Assembly: GCA_009777835.1 (NCBI GenBank)
Contig: WRKZ01000005.1
Span: forward strand, 1 to 53,839
From: Oscillospiraceae bacterium
GTDB lineage: Bacteria > Bacillota > Clostridia > Oscillospirales > Ruminococcaceae
Length of the DNA: 53,839 nucleotides
Reading direction: 5' to 3'
The notes beneath the pieces are model-generated. The model was given only the letters and a program-made list of their open reading frames with translations. It ran no database searches and was not told the origin of the DNA. Below are positions 1,025 to 45,929 of this stretch, in pieces. A program made the position numbers and the translations under genes. How positions within the stretch are numbered: the stretch's first letter is position 1; every line of letters starts with the position of its first letter.

Positions 1025-2320
1025 ATGAAGACTGCGTTGCTGCGATTTGCCAAATCTTTTTTGAATAACTTAAAGACTATAATATTCGCACTTATACTAT
1101 CGGTAATAATCTGGTTAGCGATTTCCTTCCAGTTATTCCCGAATGTTTTGCGGACAATTAACGTACCGATTTCGGCGGAACTTCCCACAAGTATGCTTGA
1201 CCGCAATCTCGAATTAGCCGAAGATTTTAACGAGTCTATCGAAATCACGATTGAAGGTAAGCGATACGAAATCGGGCGGCTCGGCCCTGAAAGTTTCGCT
1301 GTTTTTCTCGACCTTTCAGAGATAACCGAATCCGGCGAATACGAGGTTGATGTGATGGTCGTACCGCTCGTCAACGAGAATGTGCAGGTTGTCACGAGAG
1401 ACACGACACGTCAACTGAAAATCATTCAGACGAACGTGCGGGATAACCTGGCGATTTCGGTTGACCAGAGCGATATAGAAGTCGTGGACGGATTCTCCAT
1501 TGGCAGCGTTACCGTCAACCCGTCTTCAATCCGAATATGGGGTGAGAAATCGCTTGTGGATTCAGTGGCGGAGGTGCAGTTCGCCGGGTTCAACAGCGAA
1601 ACGCTTTCAGCTACGACCAAGTTCACGCTGGAAACCGCCGACATTATTCTCTTCGATGACAACGGCGAACCTATCGACAGCAGTGGGCTTAATATCGAAG
1701 ACAGGGTTTTCACGGTGACGATTTCACTTTTCAAGGTGAAATCTCTGCCGGTTTCGGTGAATATCGTGAACGAGCCGGGTAATTTCGATTTAAACTCACT
1801 TAAACGGAGAATGAGAATCGTCCCGGATGAATTGACAATCGGAATCCCGGATGAAGCCTCCGACAATCGGGAAAGTTGGGATTTAGACTCAATCTCACTC
1901 AGCAGTATTACCATCTGGGGATTGCAAAACGGGATTTCACTCCCGATTACCCTGCCCGAAGGTTACAAGAATATGTCCAACGACACGGAAGCGCGAATCA
2001 TCTTTGATGACGTCGAAGAATACGGCATGATTCCGCTGACCGTCCCCACACGGGACTTCGTCACAATCGGCACGCCGTCGGGGTACTCGGTTTCGTACAT
2101 AACGAACTCGATTACCGTGAAAGTTGCCGGCCCGTCGGACTCTATCCACCCCATGACCATTGCCGACATCAACGGAACAATCAACCTCACAGGAAGAGAC
2201 GACCTAACCGCGGGGACTATGCCGATTCGTGTGAAGTTCACGATTGCAGGCTCAAATGTAGACTCATGGGTGGTAGAAGACGAATACGAAATCTATATCG
2301 AAATCAAAGAAGTGGATTAA
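1025..2320 (+). CDS. cdaR: YbbR-domain protein CdaR, putative CdaA regulator
   Basis: Single N-terminal TM segment and repeated YbbR-like beta modules; immediately downstream of cdaA. Confidence 0.88.
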   Translation: MKTALLRFAKSFLNNLKTIIFALILSVIIWLAISFQLFPNVLRTINVPISAELPTSMLDRNLELAEDFNESIEITIEGKRYEIGRLGPESFAVFLDLSEITESGEYEVDVMVVPLVNENVQVVTRDTTRQLKIIQTNVRDNLAISVDQSDIEVVDGFSIGSVTVNPSSIRIWGEKSLVDSVAEVQFAGFNSETLSATTKFTLETADIILFDDNGEPIDSSGLNIEDRVFTVTISLFKVKSLPVSVNIVNEPGNFDLNSLKRRMRIVPDELTIGIPDEASDNRESWDLDSISLSSITIWGLQNGISLPITLPEGYKNMSNDTEARIIFDDVEEYGMIPLTVPTRDFVTIGTPSGYSVSYITNSITVKVAGPSDSIHPMTIADINGTINLTGRDDLTAGTMPIRVKFTIAGSNVDSWVVEDEYEIYIEIKEVD

Positions 2321-2344
2321 GAAATTTCATAGAAGGAGGCGCGC

Positions 2345-3304
2345 ATGAACAAAATACAAATCACAATCGGGGGAAGGACTTACGCCCTCAAAACCGATGA
2401 AAGTCCCGAACGTATGTCAAAAATGGCAGAATCGCTTACCGTCAAAATCAACGAGTTTTCGCAGAATATGAAAGGCAGAGCCGAGACCGAGATTCTCACA
2501 ATCGTTGGTTTCGACTTAATGCAGGAACTTGAAAACGTCATCGAAGAGCGAAATCAACTGAAAGATACCCTGGAAGAGCATGAAATCAAGAACATGCAGT
2601 TGTTAATTGAGAACATGAACTCAGCAGGAAGCGAGATGTACCAAATCGCCGCAGTGAAAGAGCAGGAGAACAACATACTTCGTGCTAAAATTCAGGAGTA
2701 TGAACAGGCGATGGATTCTCAGATTTCCAAAGCGTATTACGGGGCGAACGATGAATTCATGCGGATTTCTGTTATAAAAGAGCAGGAAAATGCCTCTTTG
2801 AGAGAGCGGATTCAAGAGTTCGAACATATGTGGGAAGAATATACATCAAAAACCTACGGCGGTGCGGCAGAAGAGTTCATGCAGATTGCCGTAATCAAGG
2901 AGCGTGAAATCTCCGAGTTGCGCAAGAGCCTTCTCGATTATGAACAGGCATGGGATGACTGTGTCAAAAAAATCCGAGATGAAGCGGGAGACGAGTTCGC
3001 CGAAATCGCCGCAGAAAAGGAAAAAGAGAAGAGTGAGCTTATTGCAAAACTCCTCGAATACGAGAAGAATTGGAATCAACACACCCTCGACGTGTTTGAG
3101 AGTGCGCTGACGGAGTTTCGTGAAGCCGCCGATGGTAAAGAGCTGAAGAATCAAGAGCTGAACGAAAAACTCGAAAACTTTGAACGTGCATTCGACGATT
3201 ATTCGAAAACGAAAGAGACTGAAATCCTTCGTATGCAGGAGGAAATTGAAGCATTGAAACTGAAACTCGCCGATTCCGAAGACGGTCAAATGACTCTCGT
3301 ATAA
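2345..3304 (+). CDS. ZapA-like cell division protein with long repetitive coiled-coil extension
   Basis: N-terminus MNKIQITIGGRTYALKTDESPERMSKMAESLTVKINEF resembles ZapA; RBS GGAGG upstream; then five 40-aa repeats. Confidence 0.75.
   Translation: MNKIQITIGGRTYALKTDESPERMSKMAESLTVKINEFSQNMKGRAETEILTIVGFDLMQELENVIEERNQLKDTLEEHEIKNMQLLIENMNSAGSEMYQIAAVKEQENNILRAKIQEYEQAMDSQISKAYYGANDEFMRISVIKEQENASLRERIQEFEHMWEEYTSKTYGGAAEEFMQIAVIKEREISELRKSLLDYEQAWDDCVKKIRDEAGDEFAEIAAEKEKEKSELIAKLLEYEKNWNQHTLDVFESALTEFREAADGKELKNQELNEKLENFERAFDDYSKTKETEILRMQEEIEALKLKLADSEDGQMTLV
2633..3232 (+). repeat. Five tandem 120-bp / 40-aa coding repeats
   Basis: Units begin EMYQIAAVKEQEN, EFMRISVIKEQEN, EFMQIAVIKEREI, EFAEIAAEKEKEK, EFREAADGKELKN; each is exactly 40 residues. 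Confidence 0.9.
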
Positions 3305-5531: not shown

Positions 5532-6833
5532 TCAGTCATCACTTCGCCGCCTGAACCCAAAGTCGGATGCGTCTTCCTTCTTAAGGACAATCTTATTGAA
5601 CAACAGAATCAGCGGGACGAGTGTAATCGCCACGAATCCCCCGGCGAATCCATTGTTATAAAGGTTCAACCCGCCGTTCAAGTTTCCGATGAAAATCGCC
5701 ACCGAAACGTGCATGAATCCTGCGATTATCCCCCAAATAGGGCCGAACTTGCAGGCAATCGGTGCAAGCCCCGTCGAAAACAAAATCGAAAGTGCGTTAG
5801 AGGCGGAAGCAACCTCATACAAATTAAGGTGAGCCGCCGCAATACTCCCGATTAAAACGGGGATGGTGTTCCGTATATGCTTTCCCGCCGCCGCAAATCC
5901 CGCTATAGTTATTATTCCCCCTAAAACCGGACCGTTAATCGGGATTTTCAACAGCAACATAGTCGTTGTGGCTATAATGCACATAACTCCTATGTTTATG
6001 TAACAGGTATCCCCATAATAGATGTAATAGTCGTTATTACTCCTGTCTTTCTCCTTGGTGATTCGTACGAATTTAGCCAACGCCTCTTTCGGGCCGCTGA
6101 TTACCAATCCGAAGATAATCGCCGCCACCGAGAATGCGAACGCCCCCGCCGCCAGATATACCGTATGGGAAGTGTCCCAATACGACTCCGGAACGACTTC
6201 AAGCCCCATACTGCGCAGTAGTCCCACCGCAAAAGTCGCGATGAATCCCCCGGCAATCCCGGAATTATAAAGGCAGTAGTCGTTGTGCATTCGCTTAACC
6301 GAATCCGAAATCGCAGGGAAAATAAACCCGATGAACATTCCTACAATGTACGCAACCACAAGCTGCAGAAAGCTGAACCGGTCATTCAAGAAAGCAATCT
6401 CACTCACGATTGGGGAAACCGTCGCACTCGCCATTGCATGAATAAGATAATCGCCGAACCGCGCCCCTTTAACTTTAGCATAAGCGAACACACCTATACA
6501 AAGCGGAATCGTATTAAGCAGATTCTTCCCGAACATAGCGAACCCCAAAGTCAAGAACAGTACCGCTATGATTTTCCCGGTAGGTTTAGTTTTCGTGATA
6601 ATCAGCAGAACAAGAAATGTTGAACACGACACCGCCGAATTTAGCAAGGTCGCACTTAATCCCGCCATATCTACATAATCTGAGACAAGGACACTCCTCG
6701 ACGTATTGATTACCCCGAAATTATACATAACGTCCATAAACGGGACTGTCGTGAACGCAAAAATCACAAACAGCCCGCATATGAACATCAACGCATAATA
6801 ATCGAAAGGAATTTTGAATTTTTCCTGTTTCAC
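5532..6833 (-). CDS. Polytopic membrane protein, DUF1576-like
   Basis: About 10 hydrophobic segments; NSGIAGGFIATF and NNGFAGGFVAITL internal duplication. Confidence 0.65.
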   Translation of the reverse strand: MKQEKFKIPFDYYALMFICGLFVIFAFTTVPFMDVMYNFGVINTSRSVLVSDYVDMAGLSATLLNSAVSCSTFLVLLIITKTKPTGKIIAVLFLTLGFAMFGKNLLNTIPLCIGVFAYAKVKGARFGDYLIHAMASATVSPIVSEIAFLNDRFSFLQLVVAYIVGMFIGFIFPAISDSVKRMHNDYCLYNSGIAGGFIATFAVGLLRSMGLEVVPESYWDTSHTVYLAAGAFAFSVAAIIFGLVISGPKEALAKFVRITKEKDRSNNDYYIYYGDTCYINIGVMCIIATTTMLLLKIPINGPVLGGIITIAGFAAAGKHIRNTIPVLIGSIAAAHLNLYEVASASNALSILFSTGLAPIACKFGPIWGIIAGFMHVSVAIFIGNLNGGLNLYNNGFAGGFVAITLVPLILLFNKIVLKKEDASDFGFRRRSDD

Positions 6834-6864
6834 GCTATATTCCTTCTAATTATTAATTAATCCG

Positions 6865-6995
6865 CTCTTGTTTTGCTTGTACCGTCAAGCTGCCTGCCGA
6901 CCGGCAAAGCCGGTCGCACTGCAGCTCTTGTTTTGCTTGTACCGTCAAGCCGCCCTGCTCGTGGCAAAGCCACGACCCGGCGGCTCTTGTTTTAC
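6865..6995 (-). repeat. Structured intergenic repeat array: three constant modules and two variable two-tier hairpins
   Basis: CTCTTGTTTTGCTTGTACCGTCAAG at 6865-6889 and 6925-6949, partial copy from 6984; hairpins 6890-6924 and 6950-6983 with inner stems GACCGGC-AAA-GCCGGTC and CGTGGC-AAA-GCCACG. Confidence 0.85.
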
Positions 6996-8306
6996 TTAAT
7001 TATTCGGTTCGGGGTCTTCATCGCTGCTTGAAGATTTACGTGCATCGATTTCGAAACGTCCGCCGTTGATGATTTGCTTGTTCTGCGCACGAATTCCGTC
7101 ACCGACTGCCGTAATATCGAATTTACCGCCGTTAATCGTTACACTGCCGCTGGACCAGTCTCTGCAAGCATCAACGTGAGTATGATTCGGGTCTTCATTT
7201 CCGCATATGTTGAGGATATTGTTGGAACGAATTCCGTTGTTTCCGGCAGTGATTTTGATGTCGCCGTTATCGATTCTCACGCCGTCGCGTCCGTGAAGTG
7301 CGTTACCTTCGCCCTGGTTCGGTGAAGATGGTGCAGGAACAGCATTCACAGTGATTTTACCACCAAAGATTTCAAGTTCGTCACGGGTGTGGATTCCGTC
7401 TCTGAAGTTACCGTTAATGTTGAGTGTTCCGCGCCCCGAAATTTCAATGTTGCGGCGGCTGTAAATTACGCCCCTCGGTTCGGTCGTTCTTTCCTCGATT
7501 GGTTCGTGCGAATACAACTCGACGTAGTTCGCGGCATCGGTAAGGGTGTTGGTAGTTCCGTCTTGGATTACAATCTCGGTCGTTTCAGAACGGTAAATGT
7601 GAATTGCCGGCCCGGTAGTGCTGGTAATGTTCACGTTGTTGAGAATCAAGCGAACTCTCTCTTCGCCCCGTTCGCCGAACGCATTTTGAGGAGTACGCGC
7701 ATTGATGTAGATGTGTCCGTTGAAGTTTCCGGTAAGAATGTACGTACCGCCTCTTCTGATTTCCAGTCTGCTCTGTTGAACAGATTGCGGAATTCCGGCT
7801 TCAACAGGTGCGCGACGGACAATAGTCCCATCTGTTCCCGTAATATTGGTTCCGTCGAAGGTGATGGTTCTGGCACCCTGGGTTTCATCCGGCAAAGTGC
7901 CCGAAGACTGACCCAACGGGTCATTTGCGGGAATGTTTACCGGCGGGCAGGTATGATTCGCCCATACCGTACATGACGGGCAGATTCCCGGCCATTCGGG
8001 ACATTCGTGTGTTTCATCATGCACAGAAGGGTCGGGGCAGGTTCCCTGCGATTTAAGGTAAGCATTTTCAATCTGCAAATCGTTGAGTGCTTGCCCGTAT
8101 TTCGAAGGCTTATCGATTTCGTTACTCATTTTCGCCAATTTCTTGAGGATTTCAAGAGCATCGGCTATGGTGACATTGCCGTCCTCATTGACATCTCCGC
8201 GCACGAAGGTGATGTTGGTGTCGGTATTGGCAAACGAAGTCATTGCGAGGGTGATTGCAATCGTAAGTACGAGTGCGATGGTTTTAAGGTTGAACGTTTT
8301 TTTCAT
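6996..8306 (-). CDS. Secreted protein with half-dockerin-like repeat and Cthe_2159/DUF4353-like carbohydrate-binding beta-helix domain
   Basis: Start refined to ATG at 8306 (MKKTFNLKTIALVLTIAITLAMTSFA signal peptide, upstream GGAGAAAT). GDVNEDGNVTIADALEILKKLAKM; repetitive NGGKFDI/NGDIKITAGNNGI beta-helix turns. Confidence 0.8.
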   Translation of the reverse strand: MKKTFNLKTIALVLTIAITLAMTSFANTDTNITFVRGDVNEDGNVTIADALEILKKLAKMSNEIDKPSKYGQALNDLQIENAYLKSQGTCPDPSVHDETHECPEWPGICPSCTVWANHTCPPVNIPANDPLGQSSGTLPDETQGARTITFDGTNITGTDGTIVRRAPVEAGIPQSVQQSRLEIRRGGTYILTGNFNGHIYINARTPQNAFGERGEERVRLILNNVNITSTTGPAIHIYRSETTEIVIQDGTTNTLTDAANYVELYSHEPIEERTTEPRGVIYSRRNIEISGRGTLNINGNFRDGIHTRDELEIFGGKITVNAVPAPSSPNQGEGNALHGRDGVRIDNGDIKITAGNNGIRSNNILNICGNEDPNHTHVDACRDWSSGSVTINGGKFDITAVGDGIRAQNKQIINGGRFEIDARKSSSSDEDPEPNN

Positions 8307-8370
8307 TTTAGAATTTCTCCTTAATCTTAATTTTAAAAATTTTATTCTATAAAATCTCACGAGTGAGAAA

Positions 8371-9435
8371 TTATACATGTTTTACCCAACCGAATTCGTC
8401 GGCGATTCTGCCGTACTGAATTCCCGTAAGGGTATCGTAGAGTTTCTGCGAAATCTCCCCGATTTCGCCATTATTAATTCGGATGACTTTTTCACCCTTC
8501 TTCAACACACCGACCGGCGAAATAACCGCCGCAGTTCCCGTCCCGAAAACTTCGCTGAGTTTCCCGTTTTCATAAGCGTCAAACACTTCATCAATGGAAA
8601 TCTTACGCTCGGTGACTCGTTTTCCCCATTTGCGACAGAGTTCAAGCACCGACATTCGGGTAATCCCCGGGAGAATAGAACCCGACAGTTCCGGTGTGAT
8701 GATTTCATCATCAATTACAAAGAACACGTTCATCGCACCGACTTCTTCGATATATTTCCGCTCCACCCCATCAAGCCAGAGTACCTGTTCATACTTTTGC
8801 GCTTGTGCTTCCTTCTGACCCAACAATGAAGCAGCATAGTTTCCGCCCGCTTTAGCGAAGCCCATTCCGCCCTTGGTGGCACGGACATAGTTTTCCTCAA
8901 CGAAGATGCTGACCGGATTCAACCCTGTGGAATAATACGCGCCGGACGGTGACGTTATTATAATAAAATAATACTTATCCGACGGACGAACCCCTAAAAA
9001 CTCGTCGGCGGCGAATATAAACGGACGAATATACAAAGACGCGCCGTTACTCCGCGGAATCCAGTCACTGTCGAGCTTGATGAGTTCTTTGAGTGCGTTC
9101 AGACAATCCTCAACATCAATCTGCGGAATCACCGAACGCTCTGCCGAGACATTCAGACGTTTAAAGTTTTCTTCCGGTCGAAACAAGGCAATTTCACCGT
9201 TGCAGGTTCGATATGCCTTCAACCCCTCGAAAATCTCCTGACCGTAATGCAGAACCATGGATGCCGGCGAAATCGAGATGTTTTGAAACTCCTTGATTTC
9301 GGGGTTGTGCCAACCTTTTTCGCCACTGTGCTCCATTATGAACATATGGTCAGCGAAAACCCGCCCGAATCCTAACTGAGATTCATCGGTAGGCTTTGGT
9401 TTAGGTGAACCGGTTTTTGTGATTTTGATATTCAT
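8371..9435 (-). CDS. ilvE: Branched-chain amino acid aminotransferase
   Basis: HYGQEIFEGLKAYR, YIRPFIFA, GGNYAASL, EEVGAMNVFFV motifs of fold-type IV BCATs. Confidence 0.95.
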   Translation of the reverse strand: MNIKITKTGSPKPKPTDESQLGFGRVFADHMFIMEHSGEKGWHNPEIKEFQNISISPASMVLHYGQEIFEGLKAYRTCNGEIALFRPEENFKRLNVSAERSVIPQIDVEDCLNALKELIKLDSDWIPRSNGASLYIRPFIFAADEFLGVRPSDKYYFIIITSPSGAYYSTGLNPVSIFVEENYVRATKGGMGFAKAGGNYAASLLGQKEAQAQKYEQVLWLDGVERKYIEEVGAMNVFFVIDDEIITPELSGSILPGITRMSVLELCRKWGKRVTERKISIDEVFDAYENGKLSEVFGTGTAAVISPVGVLKKGEKVIRINNGEIGEISQKLYDTLTGIQYGRIADEFGWVKHV

Positions 9436-13419: not shown

Positions 13420-13448
13420 TTGACATTCTCTTTTGATTGTGTTATAAT
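13420..13448 (+). promoter_or_regulatory. Sigma-A type promoter for the chemoreceptor gene
   Basis: TTGACA (13420-13425), 17-nt spacer, TATAAT (13443-13448). Confidence 0.85.
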
Positions 13449-13493
13449 TGCAAGAAAAATACACTGAAACCAAAGGAAAAAGAGGATTTTACA

Positions 13494-15200
13494 ATGAAAA
13501 ACATGAAAATCTCAGCCAAGCTAACGACAGGATTCTCAATCATGATTGCACTGATGTTGGTCATCGGGATTATCGGGATTATCGGGATTTTGCAACTCAA
13601 CGGTTCCCTATCCGAAATGTATGATGACCAAACCGAACCTCTCCCCAAAATGGCAAAAATCATCGAGTTGGTTCAAAGGCAACGGGCTTGTATGCGTGAA
13701 TACATAGTCGGCGCGGCAACCGATGATACCGACCTCATCAAAGACGCACACAGCAGATTCTTGGCTTACAAAGACGAAATAGAACAGAACAAAGCTGAAT
13801 ACAGACAAACGATTCTGAACAACGCCGAAATGTTGCGGGTTTTCGATGAAGCGGTCGCGCTTTATGACGGTGCGTTCATGGATTGCGAAAAAGCAATGTA
13901 CGACGGTGCGATGGCAGGGGATGATGCAGATGCGTTATACGTAGACCTGCGTACCTACACCGCCGACACCAACAAAATGGCAGACCTCCTTGACCAGTCT
14001 ATGGCACTGAAGATTGAACTCGCATCCGAAGCTGACGAAGCTTCCGACAAATTGTTCGTTACCTTGCTGATTCTCGTAATCGTTGTTCTGGCGGGTGCAA
14101 TTGTAGTAGCAATTTTCCTGGTATTCTACGTTTCGGGATTGATTGCGAAACCCATCGGCAAAATGGTAAAAATAGCGAAACAAATCGAACTCGGCGATAC
14201 CGAAGTATCGATTACATCAGATTCCAGAGATGAAGTGGGCGACCTTGCCACGGCGTTCTCGCTCATGATAGACGGAATCCGTGAACAAGTACGGGTTATC
14301 CAGGAAATTGCGGCAGGTAACTTCACGATTAAATCGAAAGTCCGCTCCGAAAAAGATGCTATGGGTAAAGCATTAACCCAGACCCTTAAGCAGTTGAACG
14401 ATATGTTCGGCGAAATCAATACCGCTTCCGACCAGGTTAATTCGGGCGGAATGCAGGTGTCGGGTGCGGCACAGGCACTTTCGCAAGGTGCAACCGAGCA
14501 GGCAAGCGCAATCGAACAATTGTCGGCATCTATTCAAGAAATTTCCGACCAGGTACGCGACAACTCCTCCAACGCAAACAAAGCGAATGAACTCGTTAAC
14601 GAAACCGGTGACGAAGTCACCCGCGGAAACAACCATATGAACGATATGCTGAACGCCATGACCGAAATCAATACGGCATCATCGGAAATCTCGAAGATTA
14701 TCAAAGTTATTGACGATATTGCGTTCCAGACGAACATACTCGCGCTTAATGCAGCGGTTGAAGCTGCGCGTGCAGGTTCGGCAGGTAAAGGATTCGCAGT
14801 GGTTGCGGAAGAAGTCCGTAACCTGGCATCGAAATCGGCAGATGCGGCAAAACACACGACTTCTCTTATCGAAGGCAGTGTTTCTTCTGTAGAAAAAGGT
14901 GCGTCAATCGCACAAGAAACTGCACGTTCGCTTGAAGCAGTCGCTGAAAAGACACAGGAAGTTCAACGTCTGGTCAACGATATAGCAAGGGCATCGAACG
15001 AGCAAGCGGAAGGAATTCGCCAGATTAACACCGGCGTTGACCAGATTTCGCAGGTTGTTCAAACCAACTCCGCAACTGCACAAGAAAGTGCGGCGGCATC
15101 AGAAGAACTCTCCAGCCAAGCAAACCTTCTGCAGGAACAAATCGGCAAAATCAAACTGGATTCCTACAACAGCATGGGATTAGGCAATTCCGGTTGGTAA
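13494..15200 (+). CDS. Transmembrane methyl-accepting chemotaxis protein (4HB-type sensor, HAMP, MCP signal domain)
   Basis: Two TM segments, HAMP-like linker, conserved hairpin tip [40 protein letters not shown]. Start refined to ATG at 13494. Confidence 0.95.
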
Positions 15201-15292
15201 GCAAAACAAGAGCTCACAGGTCGGCGGCTTCGCCGTCGAGCAGGTGAGCTTGACGAAAGCAAAAGCAAAAAGAGCTCACAGGTCGGCGGCTT
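15201..15292 (+). repeat. Structured intergenic repeat, second locus (one complete and one truncated hairpin unit)
   Basis: GCAAAACAAGAG + hairpin CTCACAGGTCGGCGGCTTCGCCGTCGAGCAGGTGAG (15213-15248) + CTTGACGAAAGCAAAAGCAAAAAGAG + CTCACAGGTCGGCGGCTT (15275-15292). Matches the minus-strand reading of 6865-6995. Confidence 0.85.
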
Positions 15293-22918: not shown

Positions 22919-22975
22919 GTCTATAACCATTTCCTTACTGCACACAAAAGTACAATGAATATCCTATTAGATATT

Positions 22976-23015
22976 ATTAAACCGCAACAAATGTCTTGAC
23001 ATTTGGCGGTTTAAT
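22976..23015. repeat. Long hairpin, terminator-like
   Basis: ATTAAACCGC-AA-CAAATGTC-TT-GACATTTG-GCGGTTTAAT: 18 paired positions with one AA bulge. Confidence 0.85.
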
Positions 23016-23024
23016 TCGACGGAT

Positions 23025-23112
23025 GCGTCGGTTGCCCCGGAGGGGCGAGACGCAGGGCAATTTGAACTGGAAAAGTCCTAATCGGGCTTTGCCCGATTAG
23101 ACAAGACTTTTC
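23025..23112. repeat. Two consecutive two-tier hairpins
   Basis: GCGTC-GGTT-GCCCC-GGA-GGGGC-GA-GACGC (23025-23053) and GAAAAGTC-CTAATCGGGC-TTT-GCCCGATTAG-ACAA-GACTTTTC (23070-23112). Confidence 0.8.
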
Positions 23113-23122
23113 GAGCGGAGTA

Positions 23123-24433
23123 TTATTGCTCCGCAAAAATCCGATTCATGACCAGCCCGGTGGTCAGCTTCGGGTAAAAGTAGGTTGACTTCTGAGGCAT
23201 TTTCCCGCCCGCTAAAGCCACGTCCTTGATTTCGCCGACTTTTGTACCGTTAAGCAGGAACGCACAATTCGCCGTGCCGTTGTCAACCGCGGCGATTGCA
23301 TCCTCTTCGAGTTTGATATACGTCAGATTCGTCTGTGCCGCCATATTCGCCTTGTCAATACCGAGTAAGCGTTCTAACACAAGCGAATGAAGTACACTCA
23401 CATCAAGTTGTCGAAGGCTGATATCTTCGTTAGGCAGGAGTGAGTCCATGACAGCTATATCTTTCAAGGTCATCAACGTATATTTACCGCCCACATACAG
23501 GACGAATGCCTTCTTGCCGTTTTTACACGCCGCCGCTGATTGGGAAACGCTTTCTTCTCTGCTCAGACCTTCGGTAATGTCGAAGTATTCGCCCGATTTC
23601 GCGATGATTTCACTGTAATCGAATCCCGGTAAATCCCGAACGATTCGGTGGGTGGGCAGAACGATTAATCCGGGATTCTCCATGTTAACCAACATCATGG
23701 GTACGTAAGCCGAAGTCCCGATTTCCGACTTATCGGAAACCGAATTGCGATAGTTCAACGCCGTTTCGTAGCGGTGATGTCCGTCTGCTATGAAGACCTG
23801 CTTGTCTTTCATTAATTCGGCGATTTTCGCGATTGTCGCCTGCCCTCCGACCCCATCGATTCTCCACAGTTTGTGGGTAACTCCGTCTTTATCTGTAAAT
23901 TCCGACAACGGTGAACCGTCAGTCGCTTTGTGGAGAGTATCAAGAACGGCATTATCGTCGTCCATATACAAAGAGTAAATCTGGCTGAAATTAGCCCCGG
24001 TTGCCGTCATAAGATTGAATCGGTCGGTTTTCGCCTTTGAAAGCGTTTCTTCGTGCGGTAAGACAATCCCTTTCGAGAATTCTTCCAGTTTAACTAACCC
24101 GACGAATCCTTTTGCTGCGTAATTCGCACCCTCAAAATCGAACGAAAATTCATAAACGTAGAGACTCTCGTCTCCATCGTCAGCTAAAATGCCCGAATTC
24201 ACCCAATCACGAAGGATTTTGCCGGCTTCTTTGTACGATTCCATGTCTTCGTTCTCGGCACCATCTTTGTAGGAACGCGGAAGCTCCAACCGGATAATGT
24301 TGTATTGATTTTGTTTGAGCAAATCCTGCCGTTCACTCTCACTGATTATGTCGTATGGGGGACAGCATAATTCGTTTAATTTACCTGCGGTTTCTGCGTA
24401 GCGAAGTCCTTTGAATCCTCTGATTTCAGCCAT
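23123..24433 (-). CDS. DUF1015 family protein
   Basis: MAEIRGFKGLRY, CCPPYDIIS, FIADGHHRYETALNYR motifs. Confidence 0.93.
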   Translation of the reverse strand: MAEIRGFKGLRYAETAGKLNELCCPPYDIISESERQDLLKQNQYNIIRLELPRSYKDGAENEDMESYKEAGKILRDWVNSGILADDGDESLYVYEFSFDFEGANYAAKGFVGLVKLEEFSKGIVLPHEETLSKAKTDRFNLMTATGANFSQIYSLYMDDDNAVLDTLHKATDGSPLSEFTDKDGVTHKLWRIDGVGGQATIAKIAELMKDKQVFIADGHHRYETALNYRNSVSDKSEIGTSAYVPMMLVNMENPGLIVLPTHRIVRDLPGFDYSEIIAKSGEYFDITEGLSREESVSQSAAACKNGKKAFVLYVGGKYTLMTLKDIAVMDSLLPNEDISLRQLDVSVLHSLVLERLLGIDKANMAAQTNLTYIKLEEDAIAAVDNGTANCAFLLNGTKVGEIKDVALAGGKMPQKSTYFYPKLTTGLVMNRIFAEQ

Positions 24434-29285: not shown

Positions 29286-29373
29286 CTGCAGAGGAAGTTC
29301 ATACGGATTTCCAAAATTAATAAAGTATATTTATTGAATTGCGCGAAAAGCGCGGAAAGGTAAGGTCATAACA

Positions 29374-44219: not shown

Positions 44220-45929
44220 TTGAAACAAAACGCCCGGTATCAGGGGCGTAGACGGCAACGAGTTTCATTGCACGTTGGTGTCGGAAAGGCATGGTCATAT
44301 ATGAGTATAATTCGTAATGCAATGCGTGTGATTCCGATTTGCCTGGTTTTAATCGGATTGTCGAGCTGTTTCTTAAAAAAAGGTGACAATCCCGACGATG
44401 ATTTCAGTGCGGTCTATCGAATGGAGAGGGACATCATCTTCTTTGAAAGTCCCAATCGCGATAAAACGACCATTGTTTTCCATGATGGTAAAACACAGGA
44501 AATAGCGGGTGAGTTTTATAATCATGAAGTCAATATGGAAGGAACAAAGGCGACAGCGTTGTTCGATTACAGCACCGAGAGCGGAGGAACACTCTACTTT
44601 TTCGATGAATTCGCCGATGCACCGCTCAGAATCGCGGTGGGAGTATATGGGTTCAAATTGGCAGATTCCGGTAACGGACTCATTTACTGGAGTCATTTCA
44701 ACAACAACAATGAAACCGCTCAACTGCACTACTTAGCGACTTCCTCAAGCGGGGAAGAATCACGCTTAGTCAGCGAATCCACTTTTTATGACGGAAGGTC
44801 AAACGTTTGCGGAGTGATTTCCCCGGATGGTGAGTTGGTCTTCTACGTTACCGATGTTACCATGACATTCCAATCTAATCAAGAGGGTGAATCGACACCT
44901 ATATTCACGAGTAAAGCCTTCATCAGCAGAAACGGCGGCGAAAGCGAATTGTTCGGTGAAAATATGTTCCCGTATGCAATCGCCGATGAAGGGAAGTTCG
45001 TCTATTACGCAGAAGACAGCAGACTCATGGTGAAAAAGGGAACGGATTCGAGTACGACGGGGGTGTCACTTGCAAGAATCGGACCGGCTGTGCCTACGCA
45101 TTTCAACCGTGATTATTCGCAGATTGTCTTCAACGAGGGGGAATTCGCCTACATCAGCATTGACGGCGGCGTGAGGAAACGGATTTCCGACGATGTACTC
45201 TCACGATTCATCATTCCGAAGGGGGCGCAGTCCTCCCGCGAAAGCCACGAGAGCAGTGTCACGTACGGATTCGACGATTTTAGCGGGAAAGTCTTCTCAA
45301 CGTTAGGAAACGGACTGTTTTCGCTGGACTCGGCATACGATTCCCGCTCACTTGACAACGGAAATCTATACGATGTAACCCTATCGCGGGACGGTAAAAC
45401 GCTATTCTACAAAGACGGAAACTGGGAGAGTGCGAGCTTGAAATCGCGTCCGCTGAACAACAAAACTGACGAAGCCGGCAAGGTGATTGCGGTAAACATT
45501 GACAGTTATGTAACCACGAGTGATGGGAATATCTATTACACCGATGCCGAAAGCAACGCACTCTTCCGCAAAACGGCAGATGACAGCGGAAGAGGTATTC
45601 AAATTGCCGATAAAGTGGAATTCGGGACGTTGCAGGTCTATGCCGGGGAAATCGTGTATTTTATGACGGATTTTTCTTTTGAAAACGGCGCGACACTCCA
45701 TTCTTCTCGTTCGGAAGACGCGACCCTGTCAAATAAAATCGCTGAGGGTGTCACCCAACTCGACGTTTATAATAAGCAGGTCTATTATTACTCTCTGTTA
45801 ATTTCCGTGAGCGATTCAACCGATTATTATGAGGTTTTCAAGAGCGATGACGGCGGCGTTTTCACCGAATTTACTAAAGTAATCTTTTTCGGATATAATA
45901 AAAATTATTCAACAGGGGGGATATGGTAA
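44220..45929 (+). CDS. Lipoprotein with propeller-like repeats (DUF5050/TolB-like)
   Basis: Lipobox LIGLSSC; repeats such as GLIYWSHFNN, DGELVFYVTD, GKFVYYAED, DGKTLFYKDG. Start may be ATG at 44301. Confidence 0.7.
   Translation: MKQNARYQGRRRQRVSLHVGVGKAWSYMSIIRNAMRVIPICLVLIGLSSCFLKKGDNPDDDFSAVYRMERDIIFFESPNRDKTTIVFHDGKTQEIAGEFYNHEVNMEGTKATALFDYSTESGGTLYFFDEFADAPLRIAVGVYGFKLADSGNGLIYWSHFNNNNETAQLHYLATSSSGEESRLVSESTFYDGRSNVCGVISPDGELVFYVTDVTMTFQSNQEGESTPIFTSKAFISRNGGESELFGENMFPYAIADEGKFVYYAEDSRLMVKKGTDSSTTGVSLARIGPAVPTHFNRDYSQIVFNEGEFAYISIDGGVRKRISDDVLSRFIIPKGAQSSRESHESSVTYGFDDFSGKVFSTLGNGLFSLDSAYDSRSLDNGNLYDVTLSRDGKTLFYKDGNWESASLKSRPLNNKTDEAGKVIAVNIDSYVTTSDGNIYYTDAESNALFRKTADDSGRGIQIADKVEFGTLQVYAGEIVYFMTDFSFENGATLHSSRSEDATLSNKIAEGVTQLDVYNKQVYYYSLLISVSDSTDYYEVFKSDDGGVFTEFTKVIFFGYNKNYSTGGIW

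Follow-up and report, generated by a model that had tools for sequence, protein, structure and literature searches.

Between two genes of an Oscillospiraceae bacterium, a 25-nt sequence recurs around short hairpins that differ from each other in sequence, which raises the question of what kind of element this array is and how its hairpins could change and still pair. The window analyzed here is a stretch of 53,839 nucleotides (contig WRKZ01000005.1 of assembly GCA_009777835.1), in which exact copies of CTCTTGTTTTGCTTGTACCGTCAAG lie at 6865-6889 and 6925-6949 with a period of 60 (a repeat count expected to be 0 in shuffles), and one more copy, a partial one, follows at 6984-6999. The inter-repeat segments, 6890-6924 (35 nt) and 6950-6983 (34 nt), form two-stem hairpins with an asymmetric internal loop, and the array region folds better than every shuffle (z of -3.8 on the plus strand and -5.2 on the minus strand). 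The 25-nt repeat, its period of about 60 nt and the hairpins in between, which the original prediction had described, are all borne out by these measurements.

Both genes flanking the array, an upstream gene for a 460-aa protein with a dockerin-like motif recognized by eye (6996-8378) and a downstream 433-aa membrane-type open reading frame (5532-6833), lie on the minus strand, and this shared sense is the meaningful strand of the array. Read in this direction, the array begins at the stop codon of the upstream gene (6996-8378) and runs from TAA through GTAAAACAAGAG, hairpin 1, CTTGACGGTACAAGCAAAACAAGAG, hairpin 2 and a second CTTGACGGTACAAGCAAAACAAGAG to CGGATTAATT; its left end, TTAAGTAAAACAAGAG (6984-6999, minus strand), overlaps the stop codon. 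Unit 1, of type A (6935-6999, minus strand; hairpin body 6950-6983), is positioned directly 3' of that stop codon (6998-6996) and gives an R1 match of 62.3 bits (E 3.6e-12). Unit 2 (6875-6934, minus strand; hairpin body 6890-6924) has a hairpin of a different subfamily and gives an R1 match of 44.6 bits (E 4.3e-8). The two exact minus-strand copies of the linker CTTGACGGTACAAGCAAAACAAGAG are divided between units, as the copy at 6925-6949 comprises the right end of unit 1 and the left end of unit 2, and the copy at 6865-6889 the right end of unit 2 and a terminal partial left end. No terminator-like site, in which a GC hairpin would precede a U run on the sense strand, was found within 6700-7200. 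With a threshold of E 1, Rfam covariance models likewise matched nothing in 6800-7060, and none matched one locus of the type B units described below. The array at 6865-6999 is most probably one site of a family of miniature mobile palindromes that is present in high copy number, is of the REP or Rickettsia palindromic element (RPE) kind and is confined to one clade of the host genus.

Composition and distribution of the family

Beyond the 6865-6999 locus, the exact 25-mer linker has no other site in the bacterium's own genome, and what recurs genome-wide instead is a shorter pair of ends with a hairpin between them. Two patterns common to both window sites, CGAGCAG-N-CTTGACG and AACAAGAGC-N-GGTCG, have 24 and 17 matches in the own genome, compared to 0 for the reversed controls. 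A covariance model was built from 14 units on a structure-guided alignment, which replaced a first MAFFT alignment that had misplaced the short hairpins. Scanning with this model yielded 117 matches in the 1.74-Mb own genome (about 100 at E<0.001), as well as dozens in each of five genomes of the same genus. Grouping of 107 own matches gave 85 clusters, with 66 single, 16 double and 3 triple. The locus had been described as a local tandem intergenic element; the array stands, but its restriction to this locus does not, with more than 100 matches dispersed across the genome. A repeat scan of the window also exposed a second locus (15197-15292) missed in the original prediction, where a full type A unit on the plus strand (15197-15263; R1 match of 93.9 bits, E 2e-19) extends from the stop codon (15198-15200) of the 13437-15200 open reading frame and is followed by a truncated second unit on the same strand (15264-15292, AGCAAAAAGAGCTCACAGGTCGGCGGCTT; 96% direct repeat).

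Each unit is constant at its ends, with GCAAAACAAGAG on the left and, on the right, CTTGACG, which takes the forms CTTGACG/A with the variants GACA, GAAG and CTCGACG. Between these ends lies an imperfect hairpin of about 35 nt that can be exchanged. The hairpin folds into two stems (7 + 8 pairs) with an internal loop and a 3-nt apical loop. At the outer end, CGTC is found in 41 and TGTC in 36 of 100 own units, and the relatives carry CGTC in 44, TGTC in 14 and CTTC in 24 of 98. Type B units (35 clusters) have other ends, GTTTGAATAAGAG ... CTTGACAGGTTTGAA, plus the tail TTCATGCCACTTTGTGGCAGAAAGGCATGGTCATAA, the last 16 bases of which occur at 63 sites in the own genome (at most one mismatch), about half of them lacking a hairpin core. 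Two such core-less tails, GAAAGGCATGGTCATA at 44284-44299 and a copy with one mismatch at 29355-29370, lie on the plus strand of the window. The combination of GAAAGGYATGGTYATA and a following AANNATG thus forms a start-codon context that is strongly repeated in the own genome (G000), at these 63 places and with or without the hairpin core; it includes an upstream ATG that is often in frame with the gene. Inverted repeats of another kind (TAATCGGGCTTTGCCCGATTA and neighbors) are clustered between two open reading frames at 22960-23130 of the window.

The same-genus carriers (G006, G009, G012, G014 and G016) showed 34-65 matches per genome in a first look capped at 72, all copy numbers being lower bounds because the assemblies break at units; in G016, contigs C7, C61, C70, C75, C77 and C98 are among the many that end in or next to one. 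The other 65 genomes of the genus have no match or at most one weak model match, and a family-wide sample of 398 genomes added one weak match. Weak matches in the non-carriers G030, G038, G049 and G057 were rejected, their sequence being unrelated to the family; a single match in G005 (L116) is possibly a lone copy. From the linker search, 16-mer matches with mismatches turned up in 59 genomes of the genus as well as in viral contigs; they were discarded as chance, the contexts inspected looking like coding sequence, and a scan of GTDB and IMG/VR with the 3' half of the hairpin returned three contigs, none with a credible element. In a tree of aspartyl-tRNA synthetase (AspRS), from which carrier G006 was left out, the five carriers form one clade (support 99/97), requiring one change, with the non-carriers G015, G040 and G041 as sisters.

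Conserved pairing and exchange of hairpins

Standard pairs make up 93.8% of the pair cells in 94 distinct own units, and both sides have changed in 13 of the 15 pairs. Double-change cells number 128, compared to 25 in shuffled alignments, and the covariation score is 0.346, compared to 0.147 when shuffled, with slid structures reaching no more than 0.07. Among 95 distinct units from the five relatives, which were outside model building, 92.4% of cells are paired, double changes number 239 compared to 60, and the score is 0.467 compared to 0.150, all of these counts being read as conserved pairing and not as a probability, since cells are not independent, related copies inflate them and the alignments are model-fitted. 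Compensatory change is strong across the family, and with further copies and such changes both present, the refutation set out in the original prediction clearly fails.

At the window array the picture is a different one, as the linkers are identical at 25/25 positions and the hairpins at 71%. Adjacent units in the family fall into two classes. The first has near-identical hairpins, and its arrays are recent tandem duplications. The second, to which the window array belongs, combines identical linkers with hairpins that are 66-74% alike, further examples being L052 (linker 29/29) and L295 of G012 (26/26, one mismatch allowed). Window hairpin 1 resembles the own-genome subfamily of L045, L052 and L057, and window hairpin 2 that of L136 and L142. 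With identical linkers and each hairpin matching a dispersed subfamily, whole hairpins must have been replaced at this locus, rather than altered by stepwise compensatory mutation. The covariation originally claimed for these stems therefore survives as conserved pairing throughout the family, but not as point covariation at 6865-6995, where the hairpins were swapped en bloc. In addition, the hairpin body behaves as a cassette, as seen from chimeras of left and right arms joined at the apical loop (L045, L057 and L176) and from unrelated palindromes between the constant ends (L190 and, in G016, L280, L288 and others). The bodies of L190 and L282 are near-perfect palindromes.

Several arrays have features of their own. 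The near-perfect palindrome of L190 (G000:C15:10845) resembles a terminator-like palindrome located shortly downstream; it looks as though the constant ends had taken up a hairpin from the neighborhood. Arrays in the own genome are head-to-tail, and G016 has BIME-like arrays (L280 and L288) in which two palindromic unit types alternate in orientation. In L101, the AspRS array, the linker contains GATGCCG, the target sequence beside the insertion, which suggests that array-specific linkers may be partly target-derived.

Pairing could also be maintained at the DNA level, through correction of one arm by the other (template switching between the arms of a quasi-palindrome) together with body swapping, with no selection on RNA. 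En bloc change between identical linkers, the apical-loop chimeras and the near-perfect palindromes are all accommodated by such a process. However, it should not favor G.U over A.C pairs on one strand, and on the sense strand of own units G.U/U.G outnumber A.C/C.A by 105:28, or 64:28 once one subfamily-wide column is removed; in the relatives, with two mis-assigned internal-loop columns left out, the ratio is 55:8. As cruciform DNA would treat both strands alike, this excess suggests that it is the sense strand that pairs, either as RNA or as single-stranded DNA, and we consider arm correction a doubtful account of the conserved pairing, although the strongest of the alternatives.

Placement, insertion and spread

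Of 50 type A clusters, 19 begin no more than 30 nt past a stop codon of the same strand, mostly at 9-17 nt, compared to 18 of 481 shifted controls, and the relatives show the same placement in 24 of 84 cases, compared to 17 of 426 controls. Four units, plus one in G012, begin at the 3' end of a tRNA gene. The tail of type B units, as a rule, ends two bases before a start codon, with a second hairpin near the Shine-Dalgarno sequence. This placement would suit a cis-regulatory RNA that spread only secondarily, with type A as a 3'-end protector or a stop-proximal brake on translation and type B as a 5' leader acting on start-codon access. The excess of G.U over A.C on the transcript strand fits such a role, the fixed spacing of type B looks more like a leader than like random insertion, and there is a precedent in E. 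coli REPs, which are cited in PMC12306157 as lowering translation when located at most 15 nt from the stop codon. However, type B units precede housekeeping genes that are unrelated to one another (SHMT, der, a Cys/Met PLP enzyme, alaS and ruvA), which makes a regulon unlikely, several copies reside within coding sequence, Rfam has no match and the bodies are freely exchanged. Regulation as the primary role of the family is therefore unlikely.

The preferred reading, a family of mobile palindromes, is addressed directly by the sequences that flank the units. In the own genome, type A insertions are flanked by direct duplications of 45, 47, 34, 32, 15, 15, 13, 13 and 12 bp, compared to at most 11 bp when flanks of different sites were paired as controls; clear duplications are found in only about one-fifth of type A clusters, those of type B copies are weak, and two or three shorter ones (L157, L141 and L150) overlap the element ends. 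In the clearest cases, the left copy of the duplication abuts GCAAAACAAGAG, often with 1-3 nt common to both, and the right copy begins 12-20 nt behind the hairpin. At hisA, gatB, proB and one further open reading frame (hisA and gatB confirmed by Pfam, proB named from its sequence), the duplication spans the start codon together with the first codons and thereby leaves a complete gene downstream of the insert. Long duplications may be over-represented among survivors.

Other copies reside within genes. In AspRS, two units amounting to about 38 residues are inserted in frame, preceded by EMPFF and followed by FVAMHHPF. The insertion is absent from all 29 other homologues extracted, and tblastn alignments of other genomes break at this point; the species are far apart (AspRS is about 75% identical), so the empty-site comparison is confined to this gene. 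RecJ and PurL also carry in-frame insertions, that of PurL being a reversed unit, and the three proteins tolerate roughly 20-40 foreign residues. One unit lies at the predicted N terminus of GlnRS, where it may be untranslated; the GlnRS open reading frame (1500-3101, L175) also contains an unrelated in-frame tandem repeat, GQLTVDN, in about five copies. Together, the flanking duplications and interrupted genes indicate that copies of this family are mobile.

How they move is a separate question. A bacterial SINE-like retroelement, whose RNA copy is inserted through target-primed reverse transcription, would explain variable duplications of 12-47 bp, a fixed left end that often has 1-3 nt in common with the target and ragged right junctions. 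Since a reverse transcriptase (PF00078) was found in one of the six carriers, all incomplete metagenome-assembled genomes, and none is common to them, we regard this route as improbable. Mobilization by a Y1 (RAYT) transposase, which the original prediction had suggested looking for, would make the hairpins substrates of the TnpA_REP type. The high copy number, placement at gene 3' ends, tandem arrays and alternating arrays of G016 do resemble REP/BIME sequences. Long variable target duplications, however, are not expected from the single-strand transposition of Y1 enzymes (IS200/IS605), and PF01797 had no match in the same six incomplete carrier genomes, with control genomes positive, leaving this explanation with very little probability. 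Integron attC sites or a mini-CRISPR, suggested by short constant repeats around structured, sequence-variable interiors, can be dismissed, as GTTRRRY/RYYYAAC-type ends and cassettes between units are lacking and the supposed spacers are palindromes repeated at many loci, not unique and non-palindromic, so that the likeness to CRISPR is as superficial as first described.

Given the long variable target duplications and the absence of a detected Y1 transposase or shared reverse transcriptase, we infer that new copies are pasted in by copy-in at staggered breaks or by template switching during repair or replication. Such repair-type copy-in is the mobilizing route that we prefer; a trans-acting enzyme not recognized here is possible. 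Arrays grow by tandem duplication, and selection would remove harmful insertions, the survivors being those that leave genes unbroken by lying after a stop codon or tRNA, ahead of a start codon or in frame. Where units lie in transcripts, the sense-strand hairpin is kept, probably because an intact one shields the 3' end or because copying requires it. Tentatively, it is possible to go further and see here a transposase-less palindrome of which only the short ends and foldability are conserved, with a replaceable cassette as its body and an undescribed mode of copy-in whose duplications of 12-47 bp repair the genes it strikes.

Relation to known palindromic repeats

The closest likeness is to the CGTC-tagged REP superfamily, which includes RPE-4 and RPE-6 of Rickettsia and dRS3 of Neisseria (Di Nocera et al. 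2013, PMC3733652). Those repeats are placed behind genes, have intragenic copies in repair and tRNA-synthetase genes and have no dedicated transposase; the five phyla listed for them do not include Firmicutes (PMC3733652). The units described here are likewise short high-copy palindromes, most of them with CGTC (TGTC in type B) as the outer end of the complementary strand next to the stem, and they too lie behind genes, with intragenic copies in genes of the same kinds and no associated transposase found. However, they fold as a two-stem hairpin of about 35 nt with an internal loop and a 3-nt apical loop, whereas CGTC-tagged REPs have a stem of 8-9 bp and a loop of 4-5 nt. The opposite end is long and conserved here and is CCA there, the arrays are head-to-tail (alternating only in G016) rather than mainly head-to-head dimers, the bodies are swappable and the tag varies (CTTC in many G016 units). 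As stem and loop size, dimer type and opposite end disagree, the family is better described as REP/RPE-like than as a member of the CGTC-tagged superfamily.

Rickettsia palindromic elements, as a kind, share the in-frame palindromic units in essential genes (here AspRS, RecJ and PurL), but the present units are shorter, mostly extragenic and tandemly arrayed, part of them with target duplications. REP/BIME sequences and REPINs with their RAYTs share dispersed hairpins and placement at gene 3' ends, and tandem clusters with repeated flanks have also been described for REPINs (PMC3116915). In contrast to REP/RAYT systems, there is no GTAG/GGAG tag 5' of the hairpin, the ends being GCAAAACAAGAG and CTTGACG, and no Y1 transposase was found. 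Another group of modular small mobile repeats comprises pneumococcal BOX and RUP and other bacterial MITEs. The family resembles these in its modularity, but lacks terminal inverted repeats with a short target duplication of fixed length.

How palindromic repeats that lack a transposase move, such as CGTC-tagged REPs and RPEs, is an open question (PMC3733652), for which the readable target duplications, the empty site in a conserved gene and the single-clade spread found here provide material. In addition, constant ends around an exchangeable hairpin separate the recognition of sequence from the recognition of structure. Compared to the open-access literature, these elements are best filed as a new REP/RPE-like family that is unusual in its module-swapped hairpins and its long, variable target duplications.
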